This document shows, in pieces, positions 324 through 50,267 of a DNA stretch of 50,913 nt. The notes under the pieces are model-generated. The model did no database searches. It was not told the DNA's origin and saw only the letters and a list, made by a program, of their open reading frames with translations. Origin of the DNA: Mesobacillus persicus (lineage in GTDB: Bacteria; Bacillota; Bacilli; Bacillales; Cytobacillaceae); NCBI RefSeq assembly GCF_900109925.1, contig NZ_FOBW01000023.1:1-50913 (forward strand), given 5' to 3'. How positions within the stretch are numbered: position 1 is the stretch's first letter; the number at the start of each line of letters is the position of its first letter. Position numbers and translations under genes: made by a program.

Positions 324-1052
324 CTATTCTCCTGAAATAAAGGATATCTCTTTGTATAGTTCTTTTATCCGAAGCTTGGAAATGTGTACAAAGTGGGGAT
401 GATCTTCTAGGTAGGCAAGATAACCTTCGCCCTCCGTAGTAATTTGTGAAATGTAATATAGATTAACAATAAAAGCGCGGTGTGTTCGAAAAAAGTCGCT
501 GTTCAGTCTCTTAGAAATACTATCTAAAGATTCATTTGTTTCGTATTTTTTATCAAGCGTATGAACAATCGTTTTGCGATTCGCTTTTTCTATATAAATA
601 ATCTTTGAAAAATGAATAAAATGGGAATCTCTATTAATCTGTAAGGTTAGAATTTTCTTCTTTCCCGCTAGATTCTGTTTTGAGATGGCCATTTTCGCCT
701 TTTCTAAAGCAATGTATAACCGCTCTTTTTTAATTGGCTTGATGACATAGTCAACGGCATTCAAGTCAAACGCATGGACAGCATACTCACTATGGGCTGA
801 CGTAAAGATAAACTTTAAATGAGGGTTAACAACTAAACAGGCTGCAATCGCTTCTTTTCCAATTATTAACGTCATATTCATATCTGCAATGATTATATCT
901 GGCTTTAGTTTACTATTCAAATCAAGCAAACTTTCTCCATTATCAGCAAACCCTACTATTTCAAAGGATTCGAGAGGTTCAATAAAAGTCGCAAAGCATT
1001 CTTTAGCGCCTGGATGACCTTCTGCAATCGCTACTTTGATTTTTGAGTTCAC
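324..1052 (-). CDS. LytTR-family response regulator (orphan)
   Basis: Two-domain DNA-binding response regulator. Residues 1-120 form a receiver domain with a probable phospho-acceptor Asp57 (IIIADMNM), Thr84 and Lys105 (VIKP). Residues about 130-240 form a LytTR DNA-binding domain (IIYIEKANRKT, FFRTHRAFIVNL). The N-terminal acidic pocket reads AEGH where two or three acidic residues are usual, so metal and phosphate binding may be weakened. The longest frame opens at GTG 1064, but GTG 1052 is preferred because AAGGTGG lies 8 nt upstream and the family begins near the first beta strand. No histidine kinase is adjacent. The stop abuts a partial copy of the dispersed GGGACGGTT element. Confidence 0.85.
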   Translation of the reverse strand: MNSKIKVAIAEGHPGAKECFATFIEPLESFEIVGFADNGESLLDLNSKLKPDIIIADMNMTLIIGKEAIAACLVVNPHLKFIFTSAHSEYAVHAFDLNAVDYVIKPIKKERLYIALEKAKMAISKQNLAGKKKILTLQINRDSHFIHFSKIIYIEKANRKTIVHTLDKKYETNESLDSISKRLNSDFFRTHRAFIVNLYYISQITTEGEGYLAYLEDHPHFVHISKLRIKELYKEISFISGE

Positions 1053-1251
1053 TTCAGATGCCACCTTCTCTCTTGGTTGCCTAATTTCCTAGTTTGGAAG
1101 GCTTAAATTGATGAGTTCTTCCTTTATATAAGATTGTGGCGTTTTTGTGAACACTCCCATTGTAACATTCATTCTTTGAGAAACTGTCGCTCTTAAGGAA
1201 TTGGCAAGTATTTACCATAAATTCCACTTATTTATAAAAGCCCTCAACCTC

Positions 1252-1410
1252 CTAACTCTGCGGGGAGGAAGCGGACTGGTTATATTTGTGACCGATTTCT
1301 TTTCTTCGTTTCATCTCTTGTTTTAGTAGGTTAATAAACTCTTGGTCCACATCTAATGCGATTGCCTTCTCGTAAACCTCTAATAAAAAATCATCACTTA
1401 ATTTATTCAT
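1252..1410 (-). CDS. sda: Sporulation histidine kinase inhibitor Sda
   Basis: A 52-residue protein with the Sda signature: N-terminal MNKLSDDFLLEVYEKA, then a second helix with DQEFINLLKQEMKRR, i.e. the helical hairpin that docks on KinA/KinB and blocks phosphotransfer to Spo0F when replication is disturbed. It has a 10-residue polar tail (NQSASSPQS) beyond the usual about 46 residues. ATG 1410 is preceded by AAAGGGG 10 nt upstream. It is monocistronic between the LytTR gene and the aldolase, all on the minus strand. In B. subtilis sda is DnaA-controlled; I did not find a consensus DnaA box in the 150 nt upstream. Confidence 0.85.
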   Translation of the reverse strand: MNKLSDDFLLEVYEKAIALDVDQEFINLLKQEMKRRKEIGHKYNQSASSPQS

Positions 1411-1448
1411 TTACTAGAAACCCCTTTGTTTTTTACAATAGTTTTTTA

Positions 1449-1477
1449 ATTATATTCTCTATTTTTTTGTTTTTAAA
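1449..1477 (-). promoter_or_regulatory. Candidate sigma-A promoter of sda
   Basis: On the minus strand a perfect TATAAT (1454-1449) lies 17 nt after TTTAAA (1477-1472), placing a start site about 30 nt before the sda start codon. The -10 is consensus and the -35 is weak. Confidence 0.5.
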
Positions 1478-1623
1478 CGTAAGGGGCGTCTAACGAGATT
1501 TACTAGAGTGTATCAATCCGGTATTTGAATCCTTTTTAACGTAATTTCAGTAGGATAAATCGGCTTTCTAATCTTTCGCAGGAATCACTCGAAAATTGTC
1601 AACTTTTGTTTTTTGTTGCCCTA

Positions 1624-1701
1624 GGGACGGTTCTCTTGCTTCCATCGCTTGAAACTTAAGAGGAAGTATTAAACAGGACAAGGAAGCAGGAGAACCGTCC
1701 C
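1624..1701. repeat. Inverted pair of the dispersed 20-bp element
   Basis: Copy one, 1624-1643, reads GGGACGGTTCTCTTGCTTCC on the plus strand. Copy two, 1682-1701, is its inverse (GGGACGGTTCTCCTGCTTCC on the minus strand) and sits 8 nt downstream of the aldolase stop codon. The 38-nt spacer has no gene. The pair could fold into a long stem in RNA. Confidence 0.8.
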
Positions 1702-1709
1702 CCTGCTTC

Positions 1710-2480
1710 CTATTTCCCAGTACTCTTAAACTCGGTAACTAGCTGTCTGACTCCTTGATATAGAATCGCAGCATCGATTCCTCCTAATAGGAAGGTAAAT
1801 CCCATGTCTAAATGTTGGTCCATTGCCCCTGACCAGGTCATGATTCCTGGGGTTACATTATGTTTCTGGCACGCTTCGATGACCTTCTGACATTGTTTTT
1901 GAACTTCAGGATGATTTATCTGTCCTTGTAGTCCCATCGAGGTACTCAAATCCATTGGTCCGATAAATGCTAGATCAATTCCTGGGACCGATAGAATCTC
2001 TTCAATGTTTTCAACCGCCGTATAATGCTCAATTTGAACTATGACCAATACTTCGTCATTGGCAGCTTTAAAATAGTTCTCATACTCTTCTGCTCCAGCT
2101 CCAAACAAAATCGCCCTGCCTGCTCCCATGCCACGGACACCGAGTGGCGGGTATTTACAAAACCTCACCGCCTTCTCGGCATCTTCTTTTGTGTTCACCA
2201 TCGGAATCATAATCCCCGCAGCACCGGTGTCTAATCCTCTTTTAATCAGCGATTGCTCATTTCCGGCTACTCGTAGTAAGGGAACGGTTGATGTCCCTCT
2301 TATGATCGAAACCATGCGCCCCGCTGTTTCGAGATCCATTGACCCATGTTCGCCATCAATCATAATGCAATCCGCCCCAGCATGTGCTAATATCTCAGCC
2401 GTATCCAAACCATTTGTCATAATAAAAGTTCCGAAAACCTTTTCATTATTTGCTAGTTTCTTTTTTAATGAATTCTTCAT
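1710..2480 (-). CDS. HpcH/HpaI aldolase family protein
   Basis: 256-residue class II (metal-dependent) pyruvate aldolase of the HpcH/HpaI and 2-dehydro-3-deoxyglucarate aldolase family, which reversibly cleaves 2-oxo acids to pyruvate and an aldehyde. Visible motifs are MIDGEHGSMD (about 40-49), GAAGIMIPMV, the metal-ligand strand VQIEHYTAVEN (about 148-158) and FIGPMDLSTSMG (about 172-183), the usual barrel order. ATG 2480 has AAGGAG 8 nt upstream. No neighbouring gene names its substrate, so the specific aldol (hydroxy-ketoheptanedioate, ketodeoxyglucarate or other) is open. Confidence 0.85.
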   Translation of the reverse strand: MKNSLKKKLANNEKVFGTFIMTNGLDTAEILAHAGADCIMIDGEHGSMDLETAGRMVSIIRGTSTVPLLRVAGNEQSLIKRGLDTGAAGIMIPMVNTKEDAEKAVRFCKYPPLGVRGMGAGRAILFGAGAEEYENYFKAANDEVLVIVQIEHYTAVENIEEILSVPGIDLAFIGPMDLSTSMGLQGQINHPEVQKQCQKVIEACQKHNVTPGIMTWSGAMDQHLDMGFTFLLGGIDAAILYQGVRQLVTEFKSTGK

Positions 2481-2703
2481 TTATCCATCTCCTTAAAGAA
2501 GTTATTAACCTAACAATATGACAAAAAAAATGGGTTGTATAGAAGGATTTCTAGAAATTTGGAAGCTTGTTCATGTGGGGTTTGGCAAGGTCTTATGCCC
2601 CCGATTAAAGTGACCAAACTGTCTCCTCCATCTAATCACGGTATTGGAAGCCAAACGTAGCTTACTCTGTTCTTTCCTTGTAAAATGGAGATGATTGATT
2701 TTT
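2481..2703. other. Intergenic region, divergent promoters
   Basis: This separates the divergent aldolase and lipoprotein genes. A minus-strand frame at 2571-2780 ends with an Arg- and His-rich stretch (WRRQFGHFNRGHK), which could be a decayed gene end, but it has no start region or conserved family that I recognise. Confidence 0.3.
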
Positions 2704-3294
2704 ATGAAAGGTCTGATAAAAATGAGATTTTTACTGATGATTGTTTCTCTCGGGATTCTGTTGGCAGGCTGCGGGTACAAAACTCTTGATGAAGCGATTG
2801 CGAAGGACCTTCCTTATGAAGTCGAAGATGTGCTCCTCGTTAAAGAAATAAACGGAGTCAGTATCGTATTATACACGACCATTCCTGATCAGGAGGAAAT
2901 GCCCCATATCAAGGGGGCTGTTCTAGCACGTGCCTATTTTAAAAAGAATGAAAGGGGGAAGTGGGAAAATACAGGTGGGAATGGATGGGAACATCAAGAA
3001 AATAACCAGTTTACGGTGTATCATGATTATTACACCGAGACTGACCATAACGGAACGGAAGTGATCAACATCCCTACCATTATCGGTGAAATAAACAATC
3101 TCGAGATCACTAGGATTGAAACCCTTTCACTTGGAGAGGAAGAATACAAGCAAGCAACGGTTGTCGAAAAAGATGGCCGGCGTTATTACCTCGCAATAGG
3201 ACAGATTAATGCCGTCAAAGGCCTTTCTGAGGATGGAAAAGTGGTTGATTTCCAAAGCTGGCAGATTGGCGACCATCCTGCTCCCAAAGAATGA
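2704..3294 (+). CDS. Predicted lipoprotein, unknown function
   Basis: About 196 residues. Near the N-terminus KMRFLLMIVSLGILLAGC is a lipoprotein signal peptide with lipobox LAGC, so the mature protein should be lipid-anchored outside the cell membrane. The rest is a soluble acidic domain with alternating beta-like stretches (DVLLVKEINGVSIVLYTTI, GAVLARAYFKKNERGKWENTGGNGWE) and no cysteines; this style is common in Bacillus sporulation or envelope lipoproteins, but I do not recognise the family. The start is uncertain: ATG 2704 and ATG 2722 are both possible, GGAG at 2687-2690 being rather far from either. A palindromic terminator follows at 3306. Confidence 0.65.
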   Translation: MKGLIKMRFLLMIVSLGILLAGCGYKTLDEAIAKDLPYEVEDVLLVKEINGVSIVLYTTIPDQEEMPHIKGAVLARAYFKKNERGKWENTGGNGWEHQENNQFTVYHDYYTETDHNGTEVINIPTIIGEINNLEITRIETLSLGEEEYKQATVVEKDGRRYYLAIGQINAVKGLSEDGKVVDFQSWQIGDHPAPKE

Positions 3295-3305
3295 AGTCGG
3301 ATTCA

Positions 3306-3349: not shown

Positions 3350-3357
3350 TGACCCTC

Positions 3358-3420: not shown

Positions 3421-3499
3421 CACATTCTTCAAGGTAGTTGATTTGATCATCTACCGAAACTTTTTACCTTTAAAAAAATCTATAAAATAAACCTCTATA

Positions 3500-7373: not shown

Positions 7374-7480
7374 CGTGATTACTCAAGATGTTTATATATA
7401 AAATAATCAAAATCCGCAAAGGCATTTCGGCCTAATGGATACCCTTTTCTAAATGGAAATCCATTCCATTCTTTTTGTTT

Positions 7481-7668
7481 AAGGCTGTGTTAAAGGACAA
7501 TGTTGATTTTGAGCAGGTTGATTGGAGCTCCAGGCACGAAGACTCCTGCGGGAGTGCAAGACCAAGGGAGACCCCGCAGGAGCGGTAGCGACGAGGAGGC
7601 TCCCGGACTGCCCGCGGAAAGCGAAGTGCCTGGAGCGGAAATCAACATCTACGTATAACATAGCCTTG
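7481..7668. repeat. 188-bp MITE-like repeat with inverted ends
   Basis: It starts AAGGCTGTGTTAAAGGACAA and ends with the inverse AACATAGCCTT; about 27 nt at each end are imperfect inverted repeats, also sharing TGTTGAT/ATCAACA. The interior is GC-rich (GACTCCTGCGGGAGTG, GACCCCGCAGGAGCG, GAGGAGGCTCCCGG, GCGGAAAGCGAAGTGCCTGGAGC), typical of an interspersed hairpin repeat common in Bacillus genomes. Shorter relatives with the same ends are at 13861 and 44374, and an internal remnant is at 36788. It encodes nothing I recognise. Confidence 0.75.
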
Positions 7669-7674
7669 TTTAAA

Positions 7675-7959
7675 TTATAGATTATTCAGGTAGGTTTGCA
7701 AGATCTGTTTAAGATGCTCAGGTTCTTCCGATTTAATGACAAAATGATCACCATCTAAGTGAGTCGATACCCCTTCAATCCCTTGTACCTTTAAAAAATC
7801 AACAATATCTTCAACCTCTTCAGATTGCGTCAGTAACGTCTTTTTCCCAATATACTCTTCATTAACATAAACATCATACTGATCGTGAGCATTTTTTATT
7901 GGTTCAGCCTCGGGTCCCCGTCTAAATGGTGGAAAGGCATTTTGATTATATGTTTGCAC
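7675..7959 (-). CDS. Small hypothetical protein
   Basis: About 94 residues, soluble, acidic, with one domain of alternating strands and helices (DQYDVYVNEEYIGKKTLL, VEDIVDFLKVQGIEGVST, HFVIKSEEPEHLKQIL). I do not recognise the family. GTG 7959 has ATAGGAG 8 nt upstream; ATG 7965 would leave only 2 nt of spacing, so the GTG start is preferred. It is divergent from the YesL gene and its stop lies next to the 188-bp repeat. Confidence 0.6.
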   Translation of the reverse strand: MQTYNQNAFPPFRRGPEAEPIKNAHDQYDVYVNEEYIGKKTLLTQSEEVEDIVDFLKVQGIEGVSTHLDGDHFVIKSEEPEHLKQILQTYLNNL

Positions 7960-15663: not shown

Positions 15664-16761
15664 ATGGCAGAACTTCGGTTAGAACATATTTATAAAATTT
15701 ATGACGGGAATGTAACGGCTGTAACGGATTTTAATTTAGATATAAAGGACCGGGAGTTCATTGTATTCGTAGGCCCATCGGGCTGTGGCAAGTCAACCAC
15801 CTTACGGATGATTGCTGGCCTCGAAGATATTTCTAAAGGTGATTTCTATATTGATGACCAACGTGTGAATGATGTTGCACCTAAAGATCGAGATATTGCG
15901 ATGGTTTTCCAAAACTATGCTCTGTACCCACATATGAAAGTATATGATAATATGGCTTTTGCGCTTAAGCTTCGAAAAATGGATAAATCAGAAATTGATA
16001 GAAGGGTTCAAGAAGCGGCAAAAATCCTTGGACTCGAGCAATATTTGGACAGGAAGCCTAAAGCTTTATCTGGTGGGCAACGGCAACGTGTTGCACTTGG
16101 ACGCGCGATTGTCCGCGATGCAAAGGTATTTTTGATGGACGAGCCTTTATCGAATCTTGATGCTAAACTACGGGTCCAAATGCGCTCTGAAATTATTAAA
16201 CTTCACCAACGTTTAAATACCACTACCATTTATGTAACCCATGACCAAACGGAAGCCATGACCATGGCTACTCGCATTGTTGTCATGAAAGATGGGGTGA
16301 TTCAACAAATCGGAGCCCCAAAGGAAATTTACGACAAACCAAATAATGTCTTTGTCGGAGGATTTATCGGTTCACCTGCCATGAATTTTTTCCGAGGAGA
16401 ATTAAAAGAAGATCGGTTCATCATGAATAACTTTGCTTTCCAAGTCCCAGAGGGAAAATTGAAAGTTTTGCGAGAAAAAGGCTATCAAAATAAACCAATC
16501 ATCCTTGGAATCCGTCCAGAAGATATCCATGATGAACTCCTATTTATTGAGGCTTCATCTGGTTCCACTTTCGATGTGAAAATCGATGTCGTCGAATTAA
16601 TGGGCGCAGAAACCATCCTTTATGCAACGATCAATGATCAAAATTTAATTGCACGCATCGATTCCAGAGCGGATATAAAAAATGGTCAAACCCTCCAGCT
16701 AGCCTTTGATATGAATAAAGCTCATTTCTTTGATCATGAAGCCGAAAATCGAATTTACTAG
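15664..16761 (+). CDS. msmX: Multi-sugar ABC transporter ATPase MsmX
   Basis: 365 residues, closely resembling B. subtilis MsmX along its length. Walker A GPSGCGKST (about 37-45), Q-loop MVFQNYALYPHM, signature ALSGGQRQRVALGRAI, Walker B VFLMDEPLSNLDAK and the switch His in YVTHDQTEAM are all intact. The C-terminal regulatory domain (MNFFRGELKED, ILGIRPEDIHDE) is of the MalK type. MsmX serves several CUT1 importers; here it most likely energises the transporter encoded at 8908-12094. It is divergent from xylA. The TAG stop forms the first base of a copy of the dispersed 20-bp element. Confidence 0.95.
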   Translation: MAELRLEHIYKIYDGNVTAVTDFNLDIKDREFIVFVGPSGCGKSTTLRMIAGLEDISKGDFYIDDQRVNDVAPKDRDIAMVFQNYALYPHMKVYDNMAFALKLRKMDKSEIDRRVQEAAKILGLEQYLDRKPKALSGGQRQRVALGRAIVRDAKVFLMDEPLSNLDAKLRVQMRSEIIKLHQRLNTTTIYVTHDQTEAMTMATRIVVMKDGVIQQIGAPKEIYDKPNNVFVGGFIGSPAMNFFRGELKEDRFIMNNFAFQVPEGKLKVLREKGYQNKPIILGIRPEDIHDELLFIEASSGSTFDVKIDVVELMGAETILYATINDQNLIARIDSRADIKNGQTLQLAFDMNKAHFFDHEAENRIY

Positions 16762-16780
16762 GGACGGTTCTCTTGCTTCC
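16761..16780 (+). repeat. Dispersed 20-bp element at the msmX stop
   Basis: GGGACGGTTCTCTTGCTTCC; its first G is the last base of the msmX TAG codon. It is in the sense orientation relative to the gene. Confidence 0.85.
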
Positions 16781-17139: not shown

Positions 17140-17184
17140 GTTCTTCTTTTGCTTCCGCATCGAAGGAAGCAAAAGAACTGTCCC
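17140..17184. repeat. Tight inverted pair of the dispersed element
   Basis: GTTCTTCTTTTGCTTCC (17140-17156) faces GGAAGCAAAAGAACTGTCCC (17165-17184) across 8 nt, giving a long perfect-looking stem. The right copy lies 9 nt from the stop of the minus-strand permease gene. Confidence 0.75.
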
Positions 17185-17193: not shown

Positions 17194-18441
17194 TTACTGT
17201 CTGATCCACTTCCAAATTTCTTGTGGGGTTGCATTTTTTCCGTACATAAGGATGCCGGTTTTGAATATTTTCCCTGCGAGCTTCATGAAGAGCCATATAC
17301 TTAGGACCAGGATCACCAAAGAAATGATGATTTCAAGCCATGGCCATTCTTCCAAAACCGAGAGACGGAAGAGCAAGATGGCTGGTGAAGTAAGCGGAAA
17401 ATAAGAACCAATTTGAGCAATCAATCCGCTTGGGTTTGAGAGTACTGGCCCAATAAGGATGGCAGGAAGAAACGGAAGCATCATGACCATTCCTTGGAAA
17501 TTGCTTGTAGCCGTCATGTCTTCTACTGTCGCACCCACACCAACAAAGATGGCGGCAAAAAGAAGATAGCCTGCAAACGAAATAAATAATAGAAGCAGAA
17601 GTTCAGGAACAAATAAATAGCTAAAGAGTGGAAACTCAAAAAACCAAGTGATAATCGGAATAGCGAATAACATCCACACAAATACTTGAACCATTCCCAG
17701 CCCAAAGTAACCGATAATTTTCCCGTTCATTAATTCTTCAGGGGTTAATGAAGAAAGAACAATTTCAGCCACCTTTTCTTTCTTTTCCTGCGAAGCACTT
17801 TGGAAAATCATCATCCCCGTTATAACAATTGAAAAGAGAACGATGCCAGCAGTCGCGCCTGGTACAATCCGTTCAAGTTGATTTTCCATACCAACCTCGC
17901 CAACAGGATGATCCATACCAGCTTCATCTGTTTCTTCTGAAACCGAAGCTTCTTCAAAAACTACACCTTTGGTTAAAACCTCAATTTCCTCTGCTGATAA
18001 CCCCAACTTCTGAAATTGCAACTGCCTTAGGGGCCCTTCTAATACACTCAGCTGATAGATAAACGTGTCATCTACGTCCTCACTTAAGTAAACTTGAATT
18101 CTCCCTTCTTCTAGCGCAGCTTCCGTTAAAGGAATATACGCGGCATTCTCCTGCTCGGTTAATTCTTCTAGTAGCTTTGCCTCTTGTTCAGTTGTTATCT
18201 GAACATTCCAATCTACCTCTAAAGAAGCGAGCACTTTCTCCATTTCAGTCCAACTATTTAATTCATCTTTAATATATACATTTACACTATCCTGTTCATC
18301 ATTATTAAATTTTTCAAGTAGTGTCGGAATCGTGGCAAATACAATAAATAAAATCGGGGTTAAAAACAAGGAAATAATGAAAGATTTATTTTTCATGTTT
18401 CGCTTCATTTCCCATTTCGCTACCTTAAAACTATTACGCAT
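17194..18441 (-). CDS. ABC-2 type permease (NatB/YhcI-like)
   Basis: 415 residues. One N-terminal helix (KSFIISLFLTPILFIVFATI, about 20-40), a long extracytoplasmic acidic domain (about 45-200), then five or six helices from about 205. This is the NatB/YhaP layout of sodium- or drug-exporting ABC-2 permeases. ATG 18441 has GGAGGG upstream and overlaps the 3' end of the ATPase gene by 8 nt, so the longer frame to 18513 is rejected. It is the last gene of an operon ordered like B. subtilis yhcE-F-G-H-I. Confidence 0.85.
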   Translation of the reverse strand: MRNSFKVAKWEMKRNMKNKSFIISLFLTPILFIVFATIPTLLEKFNNDEQDSVNVYIKDELNSWTEMEKVLASLEVDWNVQITTEQEAKLLEELTEQENAAYIPLTEAALEEGRIQVYLSEDVDDTFIYQLSVLEGPLRQLQFQKLGLSAEEIEVLTKGVVFEEASVSEETDEAGMDHPVGEVGMENQLERIVPGATAGIVLFSIVITGMMIFQSASQEKKEKVAEIVLSSLTPEELMNGKIIGYFGLGMVQVFVWMLFAIPIITWFFEFPLFSYLFVPELLLLLFISFAGYLLFAAIFVGVGATVEDMTATSNFQGMVMMLPFLPAILIGPVLSNPSGLIAQIGSYFPLTSPAILLFRLSVLEEWPWLEIIISLVILVLSIWLFMKLAGKIFKTGILMYGKNATPQEIWKWIRQ

Positions 18442-31304: not shown

Positions 31305-31324
31305 GGAAGCACGGGAACCGTCCC
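31305..31324 (-). repeat. Dispersed 20-bp element by YjcZ pair 1
   Basis: On the minus strand GGGACGGTTCCCGTGCTTCC, lying between the YjcZ stop (6 nt away) and the terminator. Confidence 0.8.
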
Positions 31325-31330: not shown

Positions 31331-31465
31331 TTATGCCCAAGTTGCGCCGATGATGATTAGAAGGATAAACAATACGACGATTAGCGCAAAGCCTCCGCCT
31401 GCTTGGTATCCGCCGTAGCCATATCCACCGTATCCACAGCCGTGACCATATCCATATCCGAACAT
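31331..31465 (-). CDS. YjcZ-family sporulation micro-protein 1a
   Basis: 44 residues: a Gly/Tyr-rich head ([19 protein letters not shown]) and a hydrophobic tail [19 protein letters not shown], the YjcZ family pattern of a tail-anchored peptide made during sporulation. It is too short for most gene callers. It is the second gene of a pair, 45 nt after the 31-residue gene. ATG is preceded by AGGAGGAA. Role within the family is not established. Confidence 0.85.
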
Positions 31466-34090: not shown

Positions 34091-34110
34091 GGAAGCAGGA
34101 GAACCGTCCC
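34091..34110 (-). repeat. Dispersed 20-bp element by YjcZ pair 2
   Basis: On the minus strand GGGACGGTTCTCCTGCTTCC, 6 nt beyond the YjcZ stop and before the terminator, in the same arrangement as pair 1. Confidence 0.85.
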
Positions 34111-34116: not shown

Positions 34117-34233
34117 TTATGCCCAAGATGCGCCAATGATGATGAGAAGGATAAATAATACGACGATTAGCGCGAAGCCTCCACCTGCACCATATCCGCC
34201 GTAGCCATATCCACCGTATCCGTATCCGAACAT
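34117..34233 (-). CDS. YjcZ-family sporulation micro-protein 2a
   Basis: 38 residues: head [18 protein letters not shown] and tail [19 protein letters not shown]. It is close to 1a at 31331 apart from a shorter head. Second gene of pair 2, 54 nt after 2b. ATG is preceded by AGGAGGGA. Confidence 0.87.
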
Positions 34234-35294: not shown

Positions 35295-36437
35295 ATGAAT
35301 CAAGACAATCAATCCTTTTTCTCCCCTTATACTCTCCCTAATGGAGTAGAATTAAAAAACAGAATTGTCATGGCGCCGATGACAAATTTCTCGTCTCATC
35401 CGGATGGAACAGTAACGGATGCAGAAGTGAACTATTATGCTCGCCGCTCTGCGGGTGTCAGCATGGTGGTGACAGCTTGTACGTATGTTACTCCAAATGG
35501 AAAAGGATTTCATGGTGAATTTGGCGCTGATACGGACGAGATGATTCCAAGTTTAGCGCGGTTAGCCACAGCAATTAAGGAACAAGGTGCAAAAGCGATT
35601 TTACAAATCTTTCACGGTGGAAGAATGTGTCCTCCCGAATTGGTTCCGAACGGGGAAATTGTCAGTGCAAGTGACGTACCTGCAGAAAAAGGTGGAGTTT
35701 CAACAGACGAACCGGATGTAAAACCTAGAGAGTTGACGGAATCAGAAGTGGAAGAGATGATTCATGCCTTTGGCGACACGACTCGTCGTGCAATTGAAGC
35801 AGGCTATGACGGCGTTGAAATTCATGGTGCAAACGGCTATTTAATTCAACAGTTCTTCTCTCCCCATTCAAATCGCCGGTCGGATCGATTTGGTGGTAGT
35901 TTAGAAAAACGAATGACCTTCCCGCTGGCTGTCGTTGATGAAGTAAAAAGAGTCGTAAAAGAACATACTTCATCTCCATTTATTGTCGGATATCGATTTT
36001 CACCAGAGGAGCCAGAAACACCTGGGATTACAATGGGGGATACTCTAAAGCTCGTCGACACTTTAGCCAAGCAGGAGTTGGACTATCTCCATGTTTCACT
36101 AACGGAATTCTTTTCTATGCCGAGAAGAGGAGTGGAGAATGTTAATAAGACACGGATGGACCATCTTCTCGAAACCATTAACAACCGTGTCCCACTCATA
36201 GGGGTCGGGTCCATCTACTCTGCCGAAGACGCGCGTAAAGCCTTCAACACAGGTGTTCCGCTGCTAGCACTAGGAAGAGAACTAATCATTGACCCTGACT
36301 GGGTCCAAAAGATTCTAGAAGGAAAGGAAGACGAAATTGTCACCAAGTTAGACAAAAACAAACAAAAAGAACTAGTCGTACCAGATCCATTATGGAACAT
36401 CATCACCAACACACCTGGATGGTTCCCAGGAGTTTAG
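35295..36437 (+). CDS. NADH:flavin oxidoreductase, old yellow enzyme family
   Basis: 380 residues, FMN-dependent ene-reductase-type TIM barrel. Marks: NRIVMAPMTNF at the N-terminus, the substrate-binding HGANGYLIQQFFSPHSNRRSDRFGGS block (about 175-200), GYRFSPEE and the C-terminal FMN phosphate region LIGVGSIYSAEDA and LALGRELIIDPDW. It lacks the Fe-S and FAD domains of 2,4-dienoyl-CoA reductases, resembling B. subtilis YqiG-type proteins. GGAGG lies 9 nt before the ATG. The stop shares its last base with a dispersed 20-bp element. Confidence 0.92.
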   Translation: MNQDNQSFFSPYTLPNGVELKNRIVMAPMTNFSSHPDGTVTDAEVNYYARRSAGVSMVVTACTYVTPNGKGFHGEFGADTDEMIPSLARLATAIKEQGAKAILQIFHGGRMCPPELVPNGEIVSASDVPAEKGGVSTDEPDVKPRELTESEVEEMIHAFGDTTRRAIEAGYDGVEIHGANGYLIQQFFSPHSNRRSDRFGGSLEKRMTFPLAVVDEVKRVVKEHTSSPFIVGYRFSPEEPETPGITMGDTLKLVDTLAKQELDYLHVSLTEFFSMPRRGVENVNKTRMDHLLETINNRVPLIGVGSIYSAEDARKAFNTGVPLLALGRELIIDPDWVQKILEGKEDEIVTKLDKNKQKELVVPDPLWNIITNTPGWFPGV

Positions 36438-36456
36438 GGACGGTTCTTCTGCTTCC
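36437..36456 (+). repeat. Dispersed 20-bp element at the OYE stop
   Basis: GGGACGGTTCTTCTGCTTCC, beginning with the last base of the TAG stop, in sense orientation, as at msmX. Confidence 0.85.
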
Positions 36457-36881: not shown

Positions 36882-38042
36882 CTAAAGCGTCTCTGTCTCC
36901 AGTTTAAACCCTTCTAATACTACATCTTCCTCCACCTCTAGCAAGAGGCAACGTTTCCCCTGGAAGTTAATATATTTTAAGTTTCTCAGTTCTTTTGAAT
37001 TGATGGTGACATCGGCAATTTTTGTGCTGATCTTGATTTTTTTAGGCACTAGACTGCTAGCTTTGAATTCATGTTTTTCGTCCGCAATCACCGTTTTGAG
37101 CGCATGTTCGACTTTCTCAGCATCGACGTTTTCAACCCCACTAACATCAAGAATCCGCTCGATATCACGATAATCCAACTTCGGAGGCTCACTGTCTTCA
37201 CTTTCTTCGTTTTCCTGAACAATTTTATCAATCTCGTCATAGACATTGGAGATGGTTCGAGAATCGACCTCGTCGCCCATGACATTCATCAGTACTAAAC
37301 CAAAAATATCTTTATCTTCCTCGGCGGTAATCACCTCTTCACAATTCAGCACTTGTTCAATAAAGGCCTCATCTGGTTGATTATTTTTCCCTGCACAATA
37401 TAGAATATGGTTCACATCGGCACTATTGTCAGTGAATGCTGGGAACAGAAAACCAGACAAAGGCGATGATAAATTGATGATTGGATCAAACACATTGTTC
37501 GGTTTGAATGTTCGCTCGATATAGTCAAACAATAACGCCTTTTTCGGCTGGTCGGTTTTATTCAAACTACAAAGGATAAAATCATTCGAGTAAACTTCAT
37601 CGTCCCCGCCTTGTTCCGATTCTAAGTCACGATTCTTCGTATTCTTACGGTATTCTCCGCGAATAAACGTCACAACTGTATCAAACTCATACACCTTATG
37701 AGCAAACATCTTAACGACGATATCAAGCATGTATTCCTTCCAGTCATCCGTCAATTCAGAATGTAAGCCATCATAGAGGATGGTTTGCGTGCTATCCTCT
37801 ACATCCCGGGTAAATTTCAGTTCAAACAATTTGGAGTCAAGTTGTCCGGTCAAAACCTTTTTGAAATTGGCCAAAAATAATTCCTGCGATTCTTGATCTA
37901 ACATCTCAAAAGGTTGACTCAAATGGTGGTAAATCTCACCTGTTTCTTTTTGAACATAAACATTAAAGATTTCGCGGATATTCATTTTCGGATTATTTAA
38001 TTTAAACTCCTTGCGGATATTCGAAATGTCGTTTCTATTCAT
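36882..38042 (-). CDS. DUF4317 domain protein
   Basis: 386 residues, soluble and acidic. The start MNRNDISNIRKEFKLNNPKM and the segment LYCAGKNNQPDEAFIEQVLNCEE match the DUF4317 family found across Firmicutes. No catalytic motif or membrane helix is visible, and the family has no known function. It is monocistronic; the intergenic region before it is 264 nt and divergent to the esterase gene. Confidence 0.85.
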   Translation of the reverse strand: MNRNDISNIRKEFKLNNPKMNIREIFNVYVQKETGEIYHHLSQPFEMLDQESQELFLANFKKVLTGQLDSKLFELKFTRDVEDSTQTILYDGLHSELTDDWKEYMLDIVVKMFAHKVYEFDTVVTFIRGEYRKNTKNRDLESEQGGDDEVYSNDFILCSLNKTDQPKKALLFDYIERTFKPNNVFDPIINLSSPLSGFLFPAFTDNSADVNHILYCAGKNNQPDEAFIEQVLNCEEVITAEEDKDIFGLVLMNVMGDEVDSRTISNVYDEIDKIVQENEESEDSEPPKLDYRDIERILDVSGVENVDAEKVEHALKTVIADEKHEFKASSLVPKKIKISTKIADVTINSKELRNLKYINFQGKRCLLLEVEEDVVLEGFKLETETL

Positions 38043-41175: not shown

Positions 41176-42450
41176 TCAATTACTTACATTTGGGATGGAA
41201 GCAGAAGAACCGTCCCTTTGCTCTTTAATTAGAATGACCCCTACTAGGCCCATTAATGAAAAGAGTACAGGTATTAGGAATCCGTAATGGTAGCCAATGC
41301 TTATTGAATGTTGTGCATATTGATCTAGTACTTTTCCGAAAACAATCGGCAAGACCACTGCGCTTAAAAAGCCCCCCATATTGGCAAACCCGGATACAAC
41401 CCCCACTTCTTTCATAGGGAAAGATTCTCGGACCACGGCGAACGTTAATGAGCTTGCTCCCATACCAAATCCGATGATAAAAAGAAAAACCACCACCATT
41501 AGGAAAGGAGGTTTGACACCAGATAAAAACAGTCCAAACCAACTTAGAAACACAACGAAATGAATAATGGTATAAATGTTTCGAATAGAAGATAATCGAC
41601 TAGTAATCCAGCTAATTAAAGGAGCACCGACCATCGCTCCAAAAAGCCCATACATAATTAGTTGACTTGCCTCTGCACGGGATAAATCCAATACATGGAT
41701 TCCATAAGGGACTCCCCAAGAACCGATAAAGCCTACATAGGTACCGACAACTCCGAAGTGACAAAGAAATGTTGCCCAAGCTTGACGAGTAGAAAACAAT
41801 CTGCGCAGAATCGTCCAAACACTTTCGCGGTCTTTTGAAGAACGCTTCATCGGTTTAGCTTCATCTTTAAATAATTGTTTCGGTTTCGAAACAAGAACGA
41901 AGTAAAGCAAAAAGAATGTTGCCACTAATATAATTCCGGTGCCAAGGAATGGGATTCTCCACCCTGAAAAAGCAATCCACACGGAAAAAGGGACGGTAGC
42001 TGTCAATGACCCAAGGCTGCCAACCAGTGACGCTAATCCAATCAATTTTACAAATTCATTTGCCTTAAACCACTGACTTAAAATTAAAACTAGGTTAACA
42101 AAAATGGTCGCATCTCCCACACCAACCAATAGTCGCGAAAAAATCAAAACATATTCATTAGGAGCAAAACTGTAGATTAGGCTTCCTATCCCGGTAAGAA
42201 GTGTCCCAAAAATGAGAAAACGATTGGGACCGTAGCGGTCAGATAATAAACCCGCCGGGATTTGAAGTCCGGCATAAGCAAAAAATTGAACACTGCTCAT
42301 CAGTCCGATAATCGAAGCCGAAACTTGAAAATCCGTCATTAATTGATCTGTAATCAGTCCTGGAGCTGTTCTTTGGCTCACAATTAAAAAATAGGCTAAT
42401 AAGACGGAACTTAATACCACCCATCTATAGCCACTTTCCTGTTTGTTCAT
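41176..42450 (-). CDS. MFS transporter (ACS/sugar-phosphate type)
   Basis: 424 residues with twelve membrane helices. The loop 2-3 motif SDRYGPNRFL (about 69-78) and RLLVGVGDATIFV mark a major facilitator; helices and the central loop (PKQLFKDEAKPMKRSSKDRESVW) are in order. The substrate is unknown, probably an organic acid or sugar-phosphate-like anion. The last about 15 residues (RDGSSASIP and following) are encoded by a copy of the dispersed element at 41197-41216, so the original stop was probably lost or replaced. Confidence 0.88.
   Translation of the reverse strand: MNKQESGYRWVVLSSVLLAYFLIVSQRTAPGLITDQLMTDFQVSASIIGLMSSVQFFAYAGLQIPAGLLSDRYGPNRFLIFGTLLTGIGSLIYSFAPNEYVLIFSRLLVGVGDATIFVNLVLILSQWFKANEFVKLIGLASLVGSLGSLTATVPFSVWIAFSGWRIPFLGTGIILVATFFLLYFVLVSKPKQLFKDEAKPMKRSSKDRESVWTILRRLFSTRQAWATFLCHFGVVGTYVGFIGSWGVPYGIHVLDLSRAEASQLIMYGLFGAMVGAPLISWITSRLSSIRNIYTIIHFVVFLSWFGLFLSGVKPPFLMVVVFLFIIGFGMGASSLTFAVVRESFPMKEVGVVSGFANMGGFLSAVVLPIVFGKVLDQYAQHSISIGYHYGFLIPVLFSLMGLVGVILIKEQRDGSSASIPNVSN
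41197..41216 (-). repeat. Dispersed 20-bp element inside a coding 3' end
   Basis: On the minus strand GGGACGGTTCTTCTGCTTCC, read in frame as part of the MFS C-terminus, 21 nt before the stop. Confidence 0.85.
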
Positions 42451-44355: not shown

Positions 44356-44373
44356 AGATTTTTACTTAAAAAT

Positions 44374-44464
44374 AGGCTCTGTTAAAGGTAGCTGTTGATT
44401 TACGCTCCGGGCACTTCGCTCCAATCAACGTGTGGAGAATCAACAATGTCCTTTAACAAAGCTT
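44374..44464. repeat. 91-bp deleted copy of the inverted-end repeat
   Basis: AGGCTCTGTTAAAGG at the left and CCTTTAACAAAGCTT at the right are inverted; inside are TGTTGATTTACGCTCCGGGC and GAGAATCAACAATG. It shares ends with 7481 and 13861 and lacks most of the GC-rich core. Confidence 0.7.
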
Positions 44465-44476
44465 AAAAATAAAAAA

Positions 44477-44515
44477 GTAGTTATGTCCGTCTTAAAAAAA
44501 GACGACCATAACTAC
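44477..44515. terminator. Terminator between convergent genes
   Basis: GTAGTTATGTCCGTC pairs with GACGACCATAACTAC around an A/T loop, between the TetR and hydrolase genes. Confidence 0.85.
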
Positions 44516-45486: not shown

Positions 45487-45832
45487 TTTCTCTCTCCCGA
45501 TGTTATTTTTATAGATGCATCATTTTTTGAATGACTTTTGTAACGGGTCTAGACTGCTTCTATTGTCCAGCCCTCATCCTCTCAATCTGTCCCATCCCTT
45601 TCTAACTTTTCTAATCTCCTATTGTTTTTCTAGTATAAATCTTACATGACATTACAAAGAGGTGCAATTCAAAATAACATTGGAAGTTCTGGCCTGCCTG
45701 AATATCTTTTCCCTGCATTAAACCCATATCACCAGCCTTCAGCGACTGTGATAACTATTTCATACTTCCTCAATAGGGAGGAAGCAAGAGAACCGTCCCC
45801 ATAATTACCTAAAAAATGGGTAATTTATTAAT
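45487..45832. other. Divergent intergenic region
   Basis: It separates the hydrolase and the ADP-ribosyltransferase-like gene. The only structure I see is a minus-oriented dispersed 20-bp element at 45780-45799 (GGGACGGTTCTCTTGCTTCC), here not next to a stop codon. Confidence 0.5.
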
Positions 45833-45844
45833 GGAGGTATGCTT

Positions 45845-46479: not shown

Positions 46480-47553
46480 TTATTGGCTTTCCTCTGTGGT
46501 CATGTCCGTTTCTACATTCAATTCTAACATGTCTTCTGGGATGATTTCTGACTCTACATCAATCTCTTTCATGTCCTCTAGCACGCGTTTGGCAATTAAT
46601 TTGTAACCGCTTGTGTTCGGGTGAAAGAAATCTTCTGCCAATAGCTCTATGTTCGTATTCATAAATAAGTCCGCTGTTGGAATATAATGGACATTCTCAA
46701 ACTCTTCTGTCACGGCTTTCCCGGCATTATTCCAGTTATCCATAATCATTCCTAATTCCTTAATATCACCGAAAAAATGCTCAAAAGGATTATAAAAACC
46801 AATTAAATAAATTTGAGTGTCTGGATTTAGTTCATTTATTTTATTAAAAATAGCTGTTAATCTCTTAATATAGTGCACTTCTTCCTGCTCGAAAGGCTCT
46901 ATTGTGAGGTTCGTAATATTGCTTTTCACTACCTTCATAATGTCATTGGCACCAATTGTGATTAAAACAATATCTGCCTTGCTTATGGAGGAAGCAATTT
47001 CTTTCTTATCCAACCGCTTAAGCAATTGATCGGTACGATTTCCTCTTTTTCCAAAGTTTTCGATGGTGATATTCACATTATTATCAGCAAAAGTATGGTT
47101 TAGAATTCCGACATAACCGCCACTTTCCGTTTCATCCCCAACACCTTGAGTAAGAGAATCACCGATAGATACAATCTTTAAATCCTTCTTAAATAAGTTT
47201 ATTGTACCTTCAACGACTTCTTTAATTTTTTCTTTAATTTCTTCTGTTATCGTTTTCTTCTCACCATTGTCATCTGCTTCTTGATGTCCATCTTCTTCAG
47301 CTGTAGGATCCGTAGCAATATGCTCGAGTTGGCTCTCTTCACCAGCGTCAGGCTCGGTTGCCATCTCCTCTTGTTGGTCCTTTTCTTCCGCTACAGTAAC
47401 ATTCGAAATATCCTCTACCTTTGCCACCGCAATCGATTCTTGAGGATTCACACTTACTTGCTTCGTTTGATTAAAGTTTGAAAAAAATAAATAAAGAAGG
47501 ACGCACACGAATAGCAGACCAGCAATAATGATTATTGCTCTATGTCTTTGCAC
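46480..47553 (-). CDS. SGNH/GDSL hydrolase, membrane-anchored (YpmR-like)
   Basis: 357 residues. Helix at about 7-26, an acidic low-complexity linker with repeats (EEMATEPDAGEESQLEHIAT, PTAEEDGHQEAD) at about 55-105, then an SGNH esterase: GDSL block VSIGDSLTQGVG (about 130-141), Gly in GKRGNRTDQ, Asn in ITIGANDIM and the Asp-His pair in EDFFHPNTSGYKLIA. An acidic tail follows. Expected to be an extracytoplasmic esterase or lipase. It starts at GTG 47553 with a weak ribosome binding site. Confidence 0.88.
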   Translation of the reverse strand: MQRHRAIIIIAGLLFVCVLLYLFFSNFNQTKQVSVNPQESIAVAKVEDISNVTVAEEKDQQEEMATEPDAGEESQLEHIATDPTAEEDGHQEADDNGEKKTITEEIKEKIKEVVEGTINLFKKDLKIVSIGDSLTQGVGDETESGGYVGILNHTFADNNVNITIENFGKRGNRTDQLLKRLDKKEIASSISKADIVLITIGANDIMKVVKSNITNLTIEPFEQEEVHYIKRLTAIFNKINELNPDTQIYLIGFYNPFEHFFGDIKELGMIMDNWNNAGKAVTEEFENVHYIPTADLFMNTNIELLAEDFFHPNTSGYKLIAKRVLEDMKEIDVESEIIPEDMLELNVETDMTTEESQ

Positions 47554-47691
47554 GTTAACACCACACCTACCATAATTTTAGAATCCTATCCTACTAACCT
47601 AAGATATCAATATTCTTAGTTATAAGCAGTCTATTCATTTTATCACGTAAGCTTACTCAGGGTAAGACAACAAAATATAGAAAATAGCAGA

Positions 47692-47760
47692 GGGACGGTT
47701 CTTCTGCTTCCTCCCTATATTAGGCTATGCGTGCTTAAAAGGAAGCAGAAGAACCGTCCC
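47692..47760. repeat. Inverted pair of the dispersed element
   Basis: 47692-47711 is GGGACGGTTCTTCTGCTTCC on the plus strand; 47741-47760 is its exact inverse, 29 nt apart. Together they form a 20-bp perfect stem. Confidence 0.9.
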
Positions 47761-47774
47761 CTTGAACTTCAAAA

Positions 47775-47825
47775 AACCCGAATCCAAGGGATTCGGGTTA
47801 TTCTAGAAAGCAGGAGAACTGCTCC
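47775..47825 (-). terminator. Terminator of YjcZ pair 3 with degenerate element
   Basis: AACCCGAATCC pairs with GGATTCGGGTT (47775-47799). Beyond it, 47806-47825 (GAAAGCAGGAGAACTGCTCC) is a degenerate dispersed element in the same place as in pairs 1 and 2. Confidence 0.8.
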
Positions 47826-47835
47826 TATTAGCTAT

Positions 47836-48006
47836 TTATAGCCAAGATGCGCCAATGATGATTAACAGAATAAATAGTACGACGATTAGCGCAAAGCCTC
47901 CGCCAGCACCAACGCCGCCGTAACCATAGCCTGCTCCTGCTGCGCCATAGCCGCCGTATCCGAAACCGGGACCATACGCACCGTAGCCACCATATCCAAA
48001 GCCCAT
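47836..48006 (-). CDS. YjcZ-family sporulation micro-protein 3a
   Basis: 56 residues: an extended Gly/Tyr/Ala head ([20 protein letters not shown], then [10 protein letters not shown]) and the conserved tail [19 protein letters not shown]. Head expansion by repeat growth distinguishes it from 1a and 2a. Second gene of pair 3. Confidence 0.85.
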
Positions 48007-48049
48007 AATAACCCTCCTTTATTTTATAATTTGTTGAGTTCATTTCCTT

Positions 48050-48160
48050 TTAGTAACCGAAGCCAATGTAAGAAGATCCCACAATAATAAGGAGGATAAA
48101 CAACACGACAATCAAAGCAAAGCCAGAACCATATCCAGCACCTGCAACTGCACCACTCAT
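48050..48160 (-). CDS. YjcZ-family sporulation micro-protein 3b
   Basis: 36 residues: head MSGAVAGAGYGSG, tail [20 protein letters not shown] plus FGY. First gene of pair 3, with AAGGAGGTG before the ATG and the conserved promoter upstream. Confidence 0.85.
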   Translation of the reverse strand: MSGAVAGAGYGSGFALIVVLFILLIIVGSSYIGFGY

Positions 48161-48185
48161 AACAACACCTCCTTAGCATTTGTAT

Positions 48186-48213
48186 TACTATATGCCCCAT
48201 CACCCCTTCGCGT
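48186..48213 (-). promoter_or_regulatory. Sigma-K-like promoter, YjcZ pair 3
   Basis: On the minus strand AC, 17 nt, CATATAGTA, matching sigma-K. GGGCATTTGTCCATTACG upstream is shared with pairs 1 and 2 although the spacer sequence has diverged, which argues for selection on the boxes. Confidence 0.65.
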
Positions 48214-48261
48214 AATGGACAAATGCCCAGTTTCTATAAACTTAATTAAACAGGCCACATG

Positions 48262-48281
48262 GGGACGGTTCTCCTGCTTCC
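48262..48281 (+). repeat. Dispersed 20-bp element
   Basis: GGGACGGTTCTCCTGCTTCC between YjcZ pair 3 and pfkA, on the strand opposite both. Confidence 0.85.
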
Positions 48282-48314
48282 TAAAATCAACATTTGGTTC
48301 ATAATCGAAAAAAA

Positions 48315-48338
48315 CTCCGGAGGTTTCATCCTCCGGAG
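48315..48338 (-). terminator. Terminator of pfkA
   Basis: CTCCGGAGG pairs with CCTCCGGAG, with a T-run on the minus strand (from AAAAAA at 48308-48314), immediately after pfkA. Confidence 0.9.
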
Positions 48339-48344
48339 CAATCT

Positions 48345-49319
<975 letters not shown>

Positions 49320-49341
49320 TCATTGAACTTATTATTATAGT

Positions 49342-49354
49342 AACAAAATTTGTT
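49342..49354. promoter_or_regulatory. Palindrome in the pfkA promoter region
   Basis: AACAAAATTTGTT is a palindrome about one base, lying just upstream of a TATAAT-like box (minus strand) and 38 nt from the pfkA start. It may be a repressor site; no regulator is identified. Confidence 0.35.
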
Positions 49355-49381
49355 TCTAACTAAAAGAGACTCTTTATCATA

Positions 49382-49449
49382 AGAGCTGAAAGCAACTAAA
49401 ATAAATGGGGATAGATGAAAGAGTTTTATCTAAACTTCATTTCAGCTCT
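49382..49449. repeat. Inverted repeat downstream of CBO0543 gene
   Basis: AGAGCTGAAA and TTTCAGCTCT are perfect 10-bp arms 48 nt apart, between the 49496 gene and pfkA. It could be a long-loop terminator. Confidence 0.45.
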
Positions 49450-49495
49450 CAATTTGCGAACTTGGTTACGTTTGCGAACGTGTCAATCTTAATCT

Positions 49496-50065
49496 CTATA
49501 AAGGTTCGAAAGTTTTTGCTCTACTAATTCGATACGCAATTAAATAAATGACAATATAAATGGGGAAAGAGTAAAAAACACTCCACTTAATTGGTGAGTA
49601 AAACCCTAACCACTCAAACAAGGGCTCGCCAATAAATGAAGTTAGTGCTGAGTAGATAACGGCCTTTAAAAGTGGATTTAAATTGGGTTTGTATTGTAAC
49701 CAGAGCATTAGTGTTACAGGAACTAATGAAAAGTCCCATGGAATATAAGTTGGAATGGTCGGTAGAGCTCTCCCAGTATAATGCCAAGATCCGAACACCA
49801 ATCCTAAAAAATCCAACCATGAAGCAATGATTAGCCCAAAACTTCCCGCTAGCAAGAGTCTTCCCTCACTTCCGCGCTTACGAACCAAAAACCAAATCAC
49901 CCAAGGAAGAATAGCTAAAAGCCAAGACAGCCAGAAGTCCCAATGCCAAACAGTGTGTTCTTGCCAATATTTAAGATAATCCACTTCCACCTGGTGAATT
50001 CTATCAAAGAATTCTTTGGATTCCCTTATTTTTTCCTGATCCAACAACTGTTTCATACGTTCCAC
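49496..50065 (-). CDS. CBO0543 family membrane protein
   Basis: 189 residues. A cytoplasmic helical head (about 1-40), then five membrane helices. YIPWDFSLVPVTLMLWLQY and FIGEPLFEWLGFYSPIKW are the conserved family blocks. The function is unknown; the family is abundant in Bacillus, often in several copies, and a more divergent member is at 21674. ATG 50065 has a weak ribosome binding site. It lies downstream of the rRNA operon but has its own unit. Confidence 0.85.
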   Translation of the reverse strand: MERMKQLLDQEKIRESKEFFDRIHQVEVDYLKYWQEHTVWHWDFWLSWLLAILPWVIWFLVRKRGSEGRLLLAGSFGLIIASWLDFLGLVFGSWHYTGRALPTIPTYIPWDFSLVPVTLMLWLQYKPNLNPLLKAVIYSALTSFIGEPLFEWLGFYSPIKWSVFYSFPIYIVIYLIAYRISRAKTFEPL

Positions 50066-50157
50066 CTAATGAAAAATAAATTTACCAATTAATATCCCCA
50101 AACCTAGGCTGACTAATCTTGAAAGCACAAGTTTACCAAAACATCTGAAACTCATTA

Positions 50158-50190
50158 ATGGGAACGGGTGTGATCTCTGCTATCTCAACA
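50158..50190 (-). pseudogene. 5S rRNA 5'-end fragment
   Basis: On the minus strand the last 16 nt, TCACACCCGTTCCCAT, are identical to the intact 5S gene at 50621, and the preceding about 17 nt (GTTGAGATAGCAGAGA) are related. Similarity stops after CCCAT, at the 5S base before GCCGAACACGG. Confidence 0.65.
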
Positions 50191-50247
50191 GAAAGTATCA
50201 TTGTCTAGCTCCAAACTTCTCGGCCGTTTCTTTGCGCTTAAAGCAAA

Positions 50248-50267
50248 GGGACGGACCTTTTGCTTCC
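50248..50267 (+). repeat. Degenerate dispersed 20-bp element
   Basis: GGGACGGACCTTTTGCTTCC, three or four changes from consensus, near the rRNA operon end. Confidence 0.6.

Follow-up and report, generated by a model that had tools for sequence, protein, structure and literature searches.

Why should a short dispersed sequence lie directly behind stop codons, again and again and in the orientation of the genes that those codons end? The question is raised by a stretch of 50,913 nucleotides (nt) from Mesobacillus persicus (contig NZ_FOBW01000023.1, positions 1 to 50,913; hereafter the window), in which a preliminary description made from the letters alone had noted a 20-bp consensus at gene ends. 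We regard it as highly probable that this element is a non-coding satellite, of the repetitive extragenic palindromic (REP) kind, of a long REP-associated tyrosine transposase (RAYT), that is, of a Y1 transposase of the HUH type resembling group-1 RAYTs and TIRYTs (Y1 genes flanked by terminal inverted repeats). The steps by which we think it spreads and comes to lie at stops, set out below, are part of this reading. The preliminary description had put a REP-like element moved by a Y1 transposase first among its possible causes, and our results support that choice.

The 20-mer matches the window at 13 places with at most 3 mismatches, ten of them exact, where 0.01 matches would be expected, and none of 100 shuffled sequences reached 13. 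These are the places at which the element had originally been seen. The whole-genome scan proposed in the preliminary description, run at up to 2 mismatches on the genome to which the window belongs (G000; 4.64 Mb in 40 contigs), returned 192 copies and a single match to the reversed pattern. Reversed patterns also gave 0 or 1 matches in the other genomes compared, against 93 copies in G004 and 124 in G005, which are two congeners, and 132 in a further genome. With no more than 1 mismatch the consensus is present in 14 of the 41 genomes searched, the genome of the window included.

The 20-mer is only part of the repeated unit, whose head we define as its GGGAC side. Each of the 134 copies with no more than 2 mismatches has a purine directly before GGGAC, itself preceded by a partly conserved GAAGCAW, so that the complete unit reads GGAAGCAWR-GGGACGGTTCT-YYTGCTTCC. 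It is a hairpin of about 29 nt with the arms GGAAGCA and TGCTTCC in G000 and a conserved GGGACGGTTCT cap. In the window and 20 stretches surrounding copies, 421,442 bases in all, the element is present 141 times when as many as 4 mismatches are allowed; 95 of these copies are exact, and 72 of the 141 are taken up by 36 tail-to-tail pairs whose spacers are mostly 2–8 nt long. Such inverted units with a short spacer are what defines REP doublets forming hairpins (REPINs) and bacterial interspersed mosaic elements. Such a pair folds into a 20-bp hairpin, and the halves of dimers match each other at the variable arm base in 27 of 34 cases. When folded as single-stranded DNA, two dimers gave z-scores of −9.98 and −9.22, and one full single unit (stretch 1674–1713, cap GGG-ACGGT-TCT) gave −4.75. 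High copy number and folding of the full single and the dimers are properties of REPs, which are palindromes of 20–40 nt. The element is thus a REP-like hairpin whose cap is conserved and whose arms depend on the lineage, used either singly or as a tail-to-tail pair.

The preliminary description had suspected a Y1 transposase gene elsewhere in the genome, and one flanked by units is indeed there. Of the two Y1_Tnp genes in G000, the long RAYT gene encodes 261 amino acids and lies at about 40.7 kb of contig C26 (L032:1465-2247). Its product matches Pfam Y1_Tnp (PF01797) with 52 bits at a cut-off of 23, the NCBIfam model for REP-associated tyrosine transposases (REP_Tyr_transpos, NF047646) with 78.3 bits, just below the cut-off of 80, and Escherichia coli TnpAREP (4er8) with an E value of 4.7e-5. 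Its ribosome-binding site is immediately preceded by a full unit, with a further copy more 5′, and 179 nt behind its stop codon comes a dimer, so that the gene is flanked by its repeat in the manner of a REPtron. The second Y1 gene (L031:1315-1863) is of a shorter type with 182 amino acids and passes the NF047646 cut-off at 87 bits. It directly adjoins an Mg-chelatase-like gene, which we take to be of the ComM type. Several congeners also have Y1 genes with open frames of roughly 190–210 amino acids.

Relatives of the long RAYT show the same cap with other arms. A scan of named genomes found at least 461 loci, of which the best 80 were kept. These 80 span Bacillus, Cytobacillus, Mesobacillus, Virgibacillus, Alkaliphilus, Desulfosporosinus, Thermoanaerobacter, Syntrophomonas and others, and a few belong to other phyla. 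Arms in their flanks include GAAACA/TGTTTC, AACACA/TGTGTT, AATCAA/TTGATT, GTAACAA/TTGTTAC and CAAACAAA/TTTGTTTG, and some loci carry other caps (resembling GGGACAGGTCC) or none. A core with at most 1 mismatch occurs within 500 nt of the gene at 58 of 81 loci (the best 80 and our own), against a chance rate of approximately 0.06 per locus, estimated for even base use. For the arm test each of these loci was represented by the copy whose core had the fewest mismatches (at most 1), nearness to the gene deciding next, and the choice was blind to pairing; the other 23 loci stayed outside the test. Left and right arms from the same locus pair at 5.5 of 8 positions, whereas foreign arms pair at 3.6; the highest value among 5,000 permutations was 4.3. 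A looser count of 77 of 81 loci, at up to 2 mismatches, is about what chance would give and was not used.

Copies also concentrate around long RAYT genes. In G000 the first 100,000 bases of C26, which contain the gene, hold 50 of the 192 copies against 4.1 expected. In G004 the region from 536 to 720 kb, with a RAYT of 265 amino acids at 566 kb, holds 33 of 93 copies against 3.4 expected. In a third genome, G028, 16 of the 61 exact copies on contig C1 lie within 50 kb of a RAYT of 258 amino acids, where 1.4 would be expected, and the two other Y1 genes there have 0 and 3 exact copies around them. Judged by their type, these long RAYTs are the likely cognate transposases. In the G005 assembly, which holds 124 copies, the only Y1 gene found is of the short type, and the stretch of G005 that aligns to G004 does so without the segment bearing the long RAYT.

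How the element lies relative to genes was counted in stretches picked around copies in G000, G004 and G005, with gene positions from our own open reading frame (ORF) caller. The stretches contain 100, 51 and 56 elements, respectively, from which 6, 0 and 1 at the edges were excluded, and divergent intergenic regions were kept out of the stop counts. The elements are predominantly extragenic, as REPs are: 4, 0 and 3 of them fall inside called genes, and six of these seven are within 25 nt of the stop. Dimers lie no more than 10 nt from a stop in 19 of 32, 13 of 14 and 12 of 13 cases, where uniform placement within the same intergenic regions (2,000 draws) gave means of 6.7, 3.5 and 2.6. For singles the figures are 10 of 39, 9 of 30 and 17 of 33, against means of 2.0, 2.1 and 2.9. 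Singles no farther than 50 nt from a stop are on the strand of the gene rather than the opposite strand by 15:0, 12:1 and 19:1, a total of 46:2, and the head is closer than the tail to its neighbour gene in 44 of 55, 29 of 37 and 30 of 39 cases. The claim that the phase relative to stops is not random had been open to contradiction by copies free of positional or strand bias, and the bias persisted in the stretches of all three genomes.

The spacing itself suggests where many of the stops come from. Where a head lies between −5 and 15 nt from a stop, the gap between stop and GGGAC measures exactly 6 nt in 15 of 23 cases in G004 and 21 of 28 in G005 (36 of 51 together). Heads far from gene 3′ ends carry a stop triplet at −9 to −7 in 13 of 38 (G004) and 16 of 34 cases (G005), with no more than 5 at other offsets, and right arms in these genomes mostly end in TGCNTCA, the complement of a stop triplet. 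We read this as the G004/G005 arm itself bringing TGA, TAA or TAG, and the exact 6-nt spacing follows because the arm starts with a stop triplet, also far from genes. Three entry classes all occur: a stop at spacing 6, a TAG formed by WRG at spacing −1, and read-through, as at 41197. The class would follow from the reading frame at entry, one frame giving spacing 6 and another allowing spacing −1 or read-through.

Orthologous gene ends without the element bear on the same point. There were 108 near-stop or end-of-gene cases, 50 of them with an orthologous C-terminus, many of which also have an element. A tally by hand left 20 distinct loci with at least one element-free orthologue. At 13 of these the C-terminus is within one codon of the closest element-free orthologue, at five it ends 3–4 codons earlier (EK* where the orthologue has EKKNI*, to give one case) and at two it is altered or read through. 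Gene 15664–16761 of the window ends RIY*, and its congener orthologues end RIR*, RIRP* or RIRPAE*. The unit at the end of gene 35295–36437 is present at the orthologues in G004 and G005 and absent from those in G001, G002 and G003. A dimer follows the orthologue of the gene at 36882 in G004 and G005, and not in G000, G001, G003 or G006; in G002 no dimer lies at the stop, and a loose test flagged a core-like match nearby. Presence of the element at gene ends therefore varies between lineages.

These observations fit a mechanism in which the RAYT would recognise the folded single strand through the cap and the paired arms, cleave it and rejoin it, thereby spreading copies and somewhat favouring the surroundings of its own gene. 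The stop of the gene would often be the terminal triplet of the element, either TGA, TAA or TAG at −9 or a TAG made from WRG at −2, adopted when a copy lands on the old stop or within about four codons of it. Our case for this takeover is the fixed register in two congeners together with the C-termini of the orthologues. Paired copies directly after stops may in addition act as a 3′ hairpin of the mRNA. We infer both the mobility of the unit and its function at RNA 3′ ends from sequence.

A possible but on the whole doubtful alternative is that the unit is primarily an RNA 3′-end signal, kept at stops since the transcribed hairpin terminates or protects the mRNA, with movement secondary or long past. 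The strand polarity at stops in three genomes would agree with this, as would the persistence of 124 copies in G005, in which the short-type Y1 gene was the only one found. So would the core identity of elements shared between G004 and G005, which at 0.92 (17 elements) is above the 0.895 of the intergenic flanks (15 with flanks), although the difference is slight. Terminator-like sites, sought with a simple hairpin-plus-T finder, speak on both sides. None of 31 near-stop dimers has one behind it, against 73 of 265 element-free gene ends (Fisher p = 1.1e-4), whereas near-stop singles keep them about as often as the controls do (13 of 33; p = 0.16). An earlier version of the finder with other limits, applied to G000 alone, gave 5 of 11 singles, 1 of 24 dimers and 65 of 184 controls. 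The dimers may either have replaced terminators or have landed with their loss. Against a 3′-end signal stand the many copies that are distant from gene ends or precede gene starts, and at gathering score 5S rRNA is the sole Rfam family found in the window. As an intrinsic terminator the unit is ruled out by the base counts behind it, which contain no T-run (T in 79 of 134 at +1, then mixed bases), although a few singles do precede one.

It is rather unlikely that the phase reflects target specificity instead, with the RAYT inserting at a TRR-like target and hence directly onto stop codons. The exact 6-nt register in both congeners and the 13 loci whose C-termini stay within one codon are what such a preference would produce. 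However, the stop triplet also stands at the end of elements far from genes, with its complement in the right arm, so that the triplet can belong to the element; TRR triplets are common in intergenic DNA, and the seven shortened, altered or read-through C-termini are what landing within the last codons predicts. Still less probable, in our judgement, is that the elements mark junctions of deletion or exchange, at which intervening DNA was removed and a gene left flush with an element. Of 51 synteny breakpoints between G004 and G005, which are about 90–93% identical across most aligned blocks, 22 are no farther than 50 nt from an element in one genome or the other, whereas random intergenic points gave a mean of 11.8 and a maximum of 22 in 2,000 draws. 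Three gene-end differences between the two genomes (the L194, L202 and L206 cases) coincide with synteny breaks. At L206:13219 in G005 a dimer is all that separates two genes, against about 6 kb in G004 (L205/L209) from the first gene to a single half unit at the second. The comparison of the two genomes is unpolarised, and breakpoints and elements may both concentrate at gene 3′ ends, for which random intergenic points are a weak control; we treat the excess as a lead only. Finally, we give hardly any credence to chance, or to a binding site for a protein that has no part in transposition: shuffles and reversed patterns rule out a chance origin, arms fit each other within RAYT loci only, and the element is associated with the RAYT.

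A RAYT satellite remains the reading we prefer, and several observations weigh against it. Two other singles folded weakly, with z-scores of −1.76 and +0.88, the latter for a stretch short of two arm bases. In singles of G000, G004 and G005 the two arms can pair at 4.6, 4.7 and 5.1 of 9 positions, no better than in dimers (4.3, 4.8 and 5.0), which indicates that many left arms have decayed. Mean mismatches of dimers and singles differ clearly only in G000 (0.28 against 0.62; 0.43 and 0.65 in G004, 0.31 and 0.35 in G005). In singles of G004 and G005 the variable arm base does not covary cleanly, so the argument from the arms stands on the comparison of RAYT loci and on the dimers. The largest cluster of exact copies in G028 (24 of 61, at 410–579 kb) is away from the long RAYT, and G000 too has more clusters distant from its RAYT, so that clustering may reflect permissive regions. 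The stretches behind the counts are a non-random sample, and G004 and G005 have many loci in common, which makes their counts non-independent replicates. The 10 of 39 singles near stops in G000 are within the null range, the maximum of which was 11 in 2,000 draws. Spacing is broader in G000 (6 nt in 10 and −1 in 7 of 34 heads), and with the arms GGAAGCA a stop triplet at −9 is found in 9 of 89 far heads there, without enrichment. Between G004 and G005 no clean pair of empty and filled sites was found, since each element that both of its flanks allowed us to place (23 of 58 and 21 of 70, in overlapping sets) is matched by a core in the other genome.

Comparison with described systems places the element among the RAYT-linked repeats without assigning it to a known class. 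TIRYTs carry the terminal consensus GGGGWSAS, and their repeat occurs elsewhere too, scattered singly and in dimers (Di Nocera et al. 2013, PMC3733652). The sections of that paper on which we draw share with our system a Y1 gene flanked by inverted copies, dispersed singles and dimers and a GGGG-rich motif; the unit described here differs in GGGGACGG, which carries G at the position of the consensus A and rules out the TIRtron type as defined. The main text of the same paper (figures outside our scope) contains no mention of Firmicutes, Clostrid-, Alkaliphilus, Thermoanaerobacter, Desulf- or Syntroph-, and names Bacillus only for an unrelated miniature inverted-repeat transposable element and in a reference. 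It also describes the GTAG and CGTC REPs, notes that REPs lie near gene 3′ ends and that GTAG termini can supply TAG stops (PMC3733652). GTAG REPs and REPINs are short extragenic palindromes with inverted dimers and a flanked cognate RAYT of group 2 or 3 (PMC3116915, PMC8266576, PMC6006769), and in the portions of these sources we used they are like our element in all but the RAYT group, and also in gene-3′-end preference and a stop-supplying terminus. Our unit differs in having no GTAG foot, in that its conserved part is the GGGACGGTTCT cap and its stem varies, and in a long RAYT with a C-terminal extension. A GTAG REP is ruled out because the bases from −12 to −1 give GAAGCAWR-like arms without a GTAG or GTGG foot, and a CGTC REP, which has an unpaired CGTC at one end and no associated transposase, because CGTC is here confined to CCGTCCC, inside the cap or the stem of the dimer, and a RAYT is associated. 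The system operates in the manner of a REPtron and is similar to a TIRtron, and it matches none of the GTAG, CGTC and GGGGWSAS consensuses.

The long RAYTs have the motif NHVH, NHIH or NHAH, the tyrosine motif YIHQNP and 258–265 amino acids. Subclass 2.1 of TnpA-Y1 is marked by a C-terminal helix-turn-helix extension (HTH_23, HTH_28 or Bac_DnaA_C), of which the signal here is weak: HTH_23 reached 20.5 and 16.2 bits in two of seven proteins, below its cut-off of 24.6, and other helix-turn-helix models match the C-termini of more relatives weakly and none matches that of our own 261-residue RAYT. From these features rather than from a tree we infer a placement in TnpA-Y1 subclass 2.1, or group 1 of Bertels, whose members have these motifs and this length as far as the consulted text describes. 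According to that text, 20 of 26 TIRYTs belong to subclass 2.1, and automatic and manual searches around subclass 2.1 genes found no nearby REP-like sequences (PMC6006769); in our sample, by contrast, a core lies near 58 of 81 genes. With IS200/IS605 elements the system has the Y1 HUH catalytic domain in common, and it differs from them in a single long-type gene in G000 flanked by dispersed hairpins and in NCBIfam assignments that are REP-associated, with no IS200 match. RAYT-linked REPs and the donation of stops by GTAG REPs were known; a unit lacking GTAG beside a RAYT type reported to lack REPs is new. In open-licence literature, supplements apart, no bacterial-repeat paper on the element, including the string GGGACGGTTC, was found by title.

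The copies of the window are collected in Table 1. Of the 13, six begin −1 to 9 nt after a stop in the direction of the gene, so the "eight or so" of the preliminary description was slightly high, and the sharing of the last base of TAG by two units was seen correctly. The same holds for degenerate copies at 47806 and 50248. The supposed partial copies at 308 and 16907 belong to another repeat: they have GGGACGGTTCTTA in common before a continuation like WAGCGGRCAATCGGAAG.

Table 1. Copies of the element in the window, with the nearest gene end where there is one. Distance is from stop codon to unit, in nt.
Feature	Coordinates	Strand	Mismatches	Distance	Context
Tail-to-tail pair	1624..1701	+/−	0, 0	8 (− half)	Halves 1624–1643 (+) and 1682–1701 (−), 38 nt between; left arm of − half abuts stop TAG (1710–1712) of gene 1710–2480 (−)
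Single unit	16761..16780	+	0	−1	First G is final base of TAG stop of gene 15664–16761 (+; "msmX" in the preliminary description, name unconfirmed)
Single unit	17165..17184	−	1	9	After TAA stop of gene 17194–18441 (−); arm TGAAGCAAG directly after stop
Single unit	31305..31324	−	2	6	Past TAA stop of small ORF 31331–31465; terminator-like hairpin next
Single unit	34091..34110	−	0	6	Past TAA stop of similar small ORF 34117–34233
Single unit	36437..36456	+	0	−1	First G within TAG stop of gene 35295–36437 ("OYE" in the preliminary description, name unconfirmed)
Single unit	41197..41216	−	0		Within last codons of gene 41176–42450 (−); read through as RDGSSAS
Single unit	45780..45799	−	0		Divergent intergenic region; head 45 nt from gene start
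Tail-to-tail pair	47692..47760	+/−	0, 0		Halves 47692–47711 (+) and 47741–47760 (−), 29 nt between
Degenerate unit	47806..47825	−	4		10 nt from stop of third similar small ORF 47836–48006
Single unit	48262..48281	+	0		Intergenic
Single unit	50248..50267	+	2		Arms GCAAA...TTTGC; adjoins 5S rRNA region

The three small ORFs in the table, presumably YjcZ-like, are mutually similar, each has a related copy nearby and every one has a unit or a degenerate unit after its stop. Other repeats share the window. The second repeat, which starts GGGACGGTTCTTAWAGCGG, is found at 1–320 and 16907; positions 1–319 recur unchanged at the end of contig C23, and C26 matches portions of them at 88–100%. Around 7475–7675 lies a dispersed repeat of about 100–200 bp, parts of 7472–7675 matching 14 places in the same genome among the matches listed, at 82–99% identity and E values up to 1e-40, with one match in G001 at 87%. 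Many shorter matches fall at approximately 44360–44480. A 59-nt stretch within 50331–50450 recurs without change 282 bp later in the 5S rRNA region and looks like a partial 5S copy; Rfam places 5S rRNA at gathering score only at 50621–50736.

For the long, group-1/TIRYT-like RAYTs of Bacillales and Clostridia this work provides a clear candidate for the substrate, namely a hairpin in which the cap stays constant and the arms differ between lineages. A stop triplet borne by the element would explain much of the stop-codon phase with which we began. We also considered a bolder and, as it stands, unlikely proposal, that the elements are caps for gene ends: a RAYT of a class thought to lack REPs would run elements that bring a stop and a strong 3′ hairpin, replace native terminators and spread outward from the transposase gene. 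If it were true, one mobile module would furnish the translation stop and the mRNA 3′ end for dozens of genes. G005, in which only a short-type Y1 gene was found, offers a congener for comparison, and the influence of a domesticated transposase on gene ends and on the 3′ ends of mRNAs can be put to the test.

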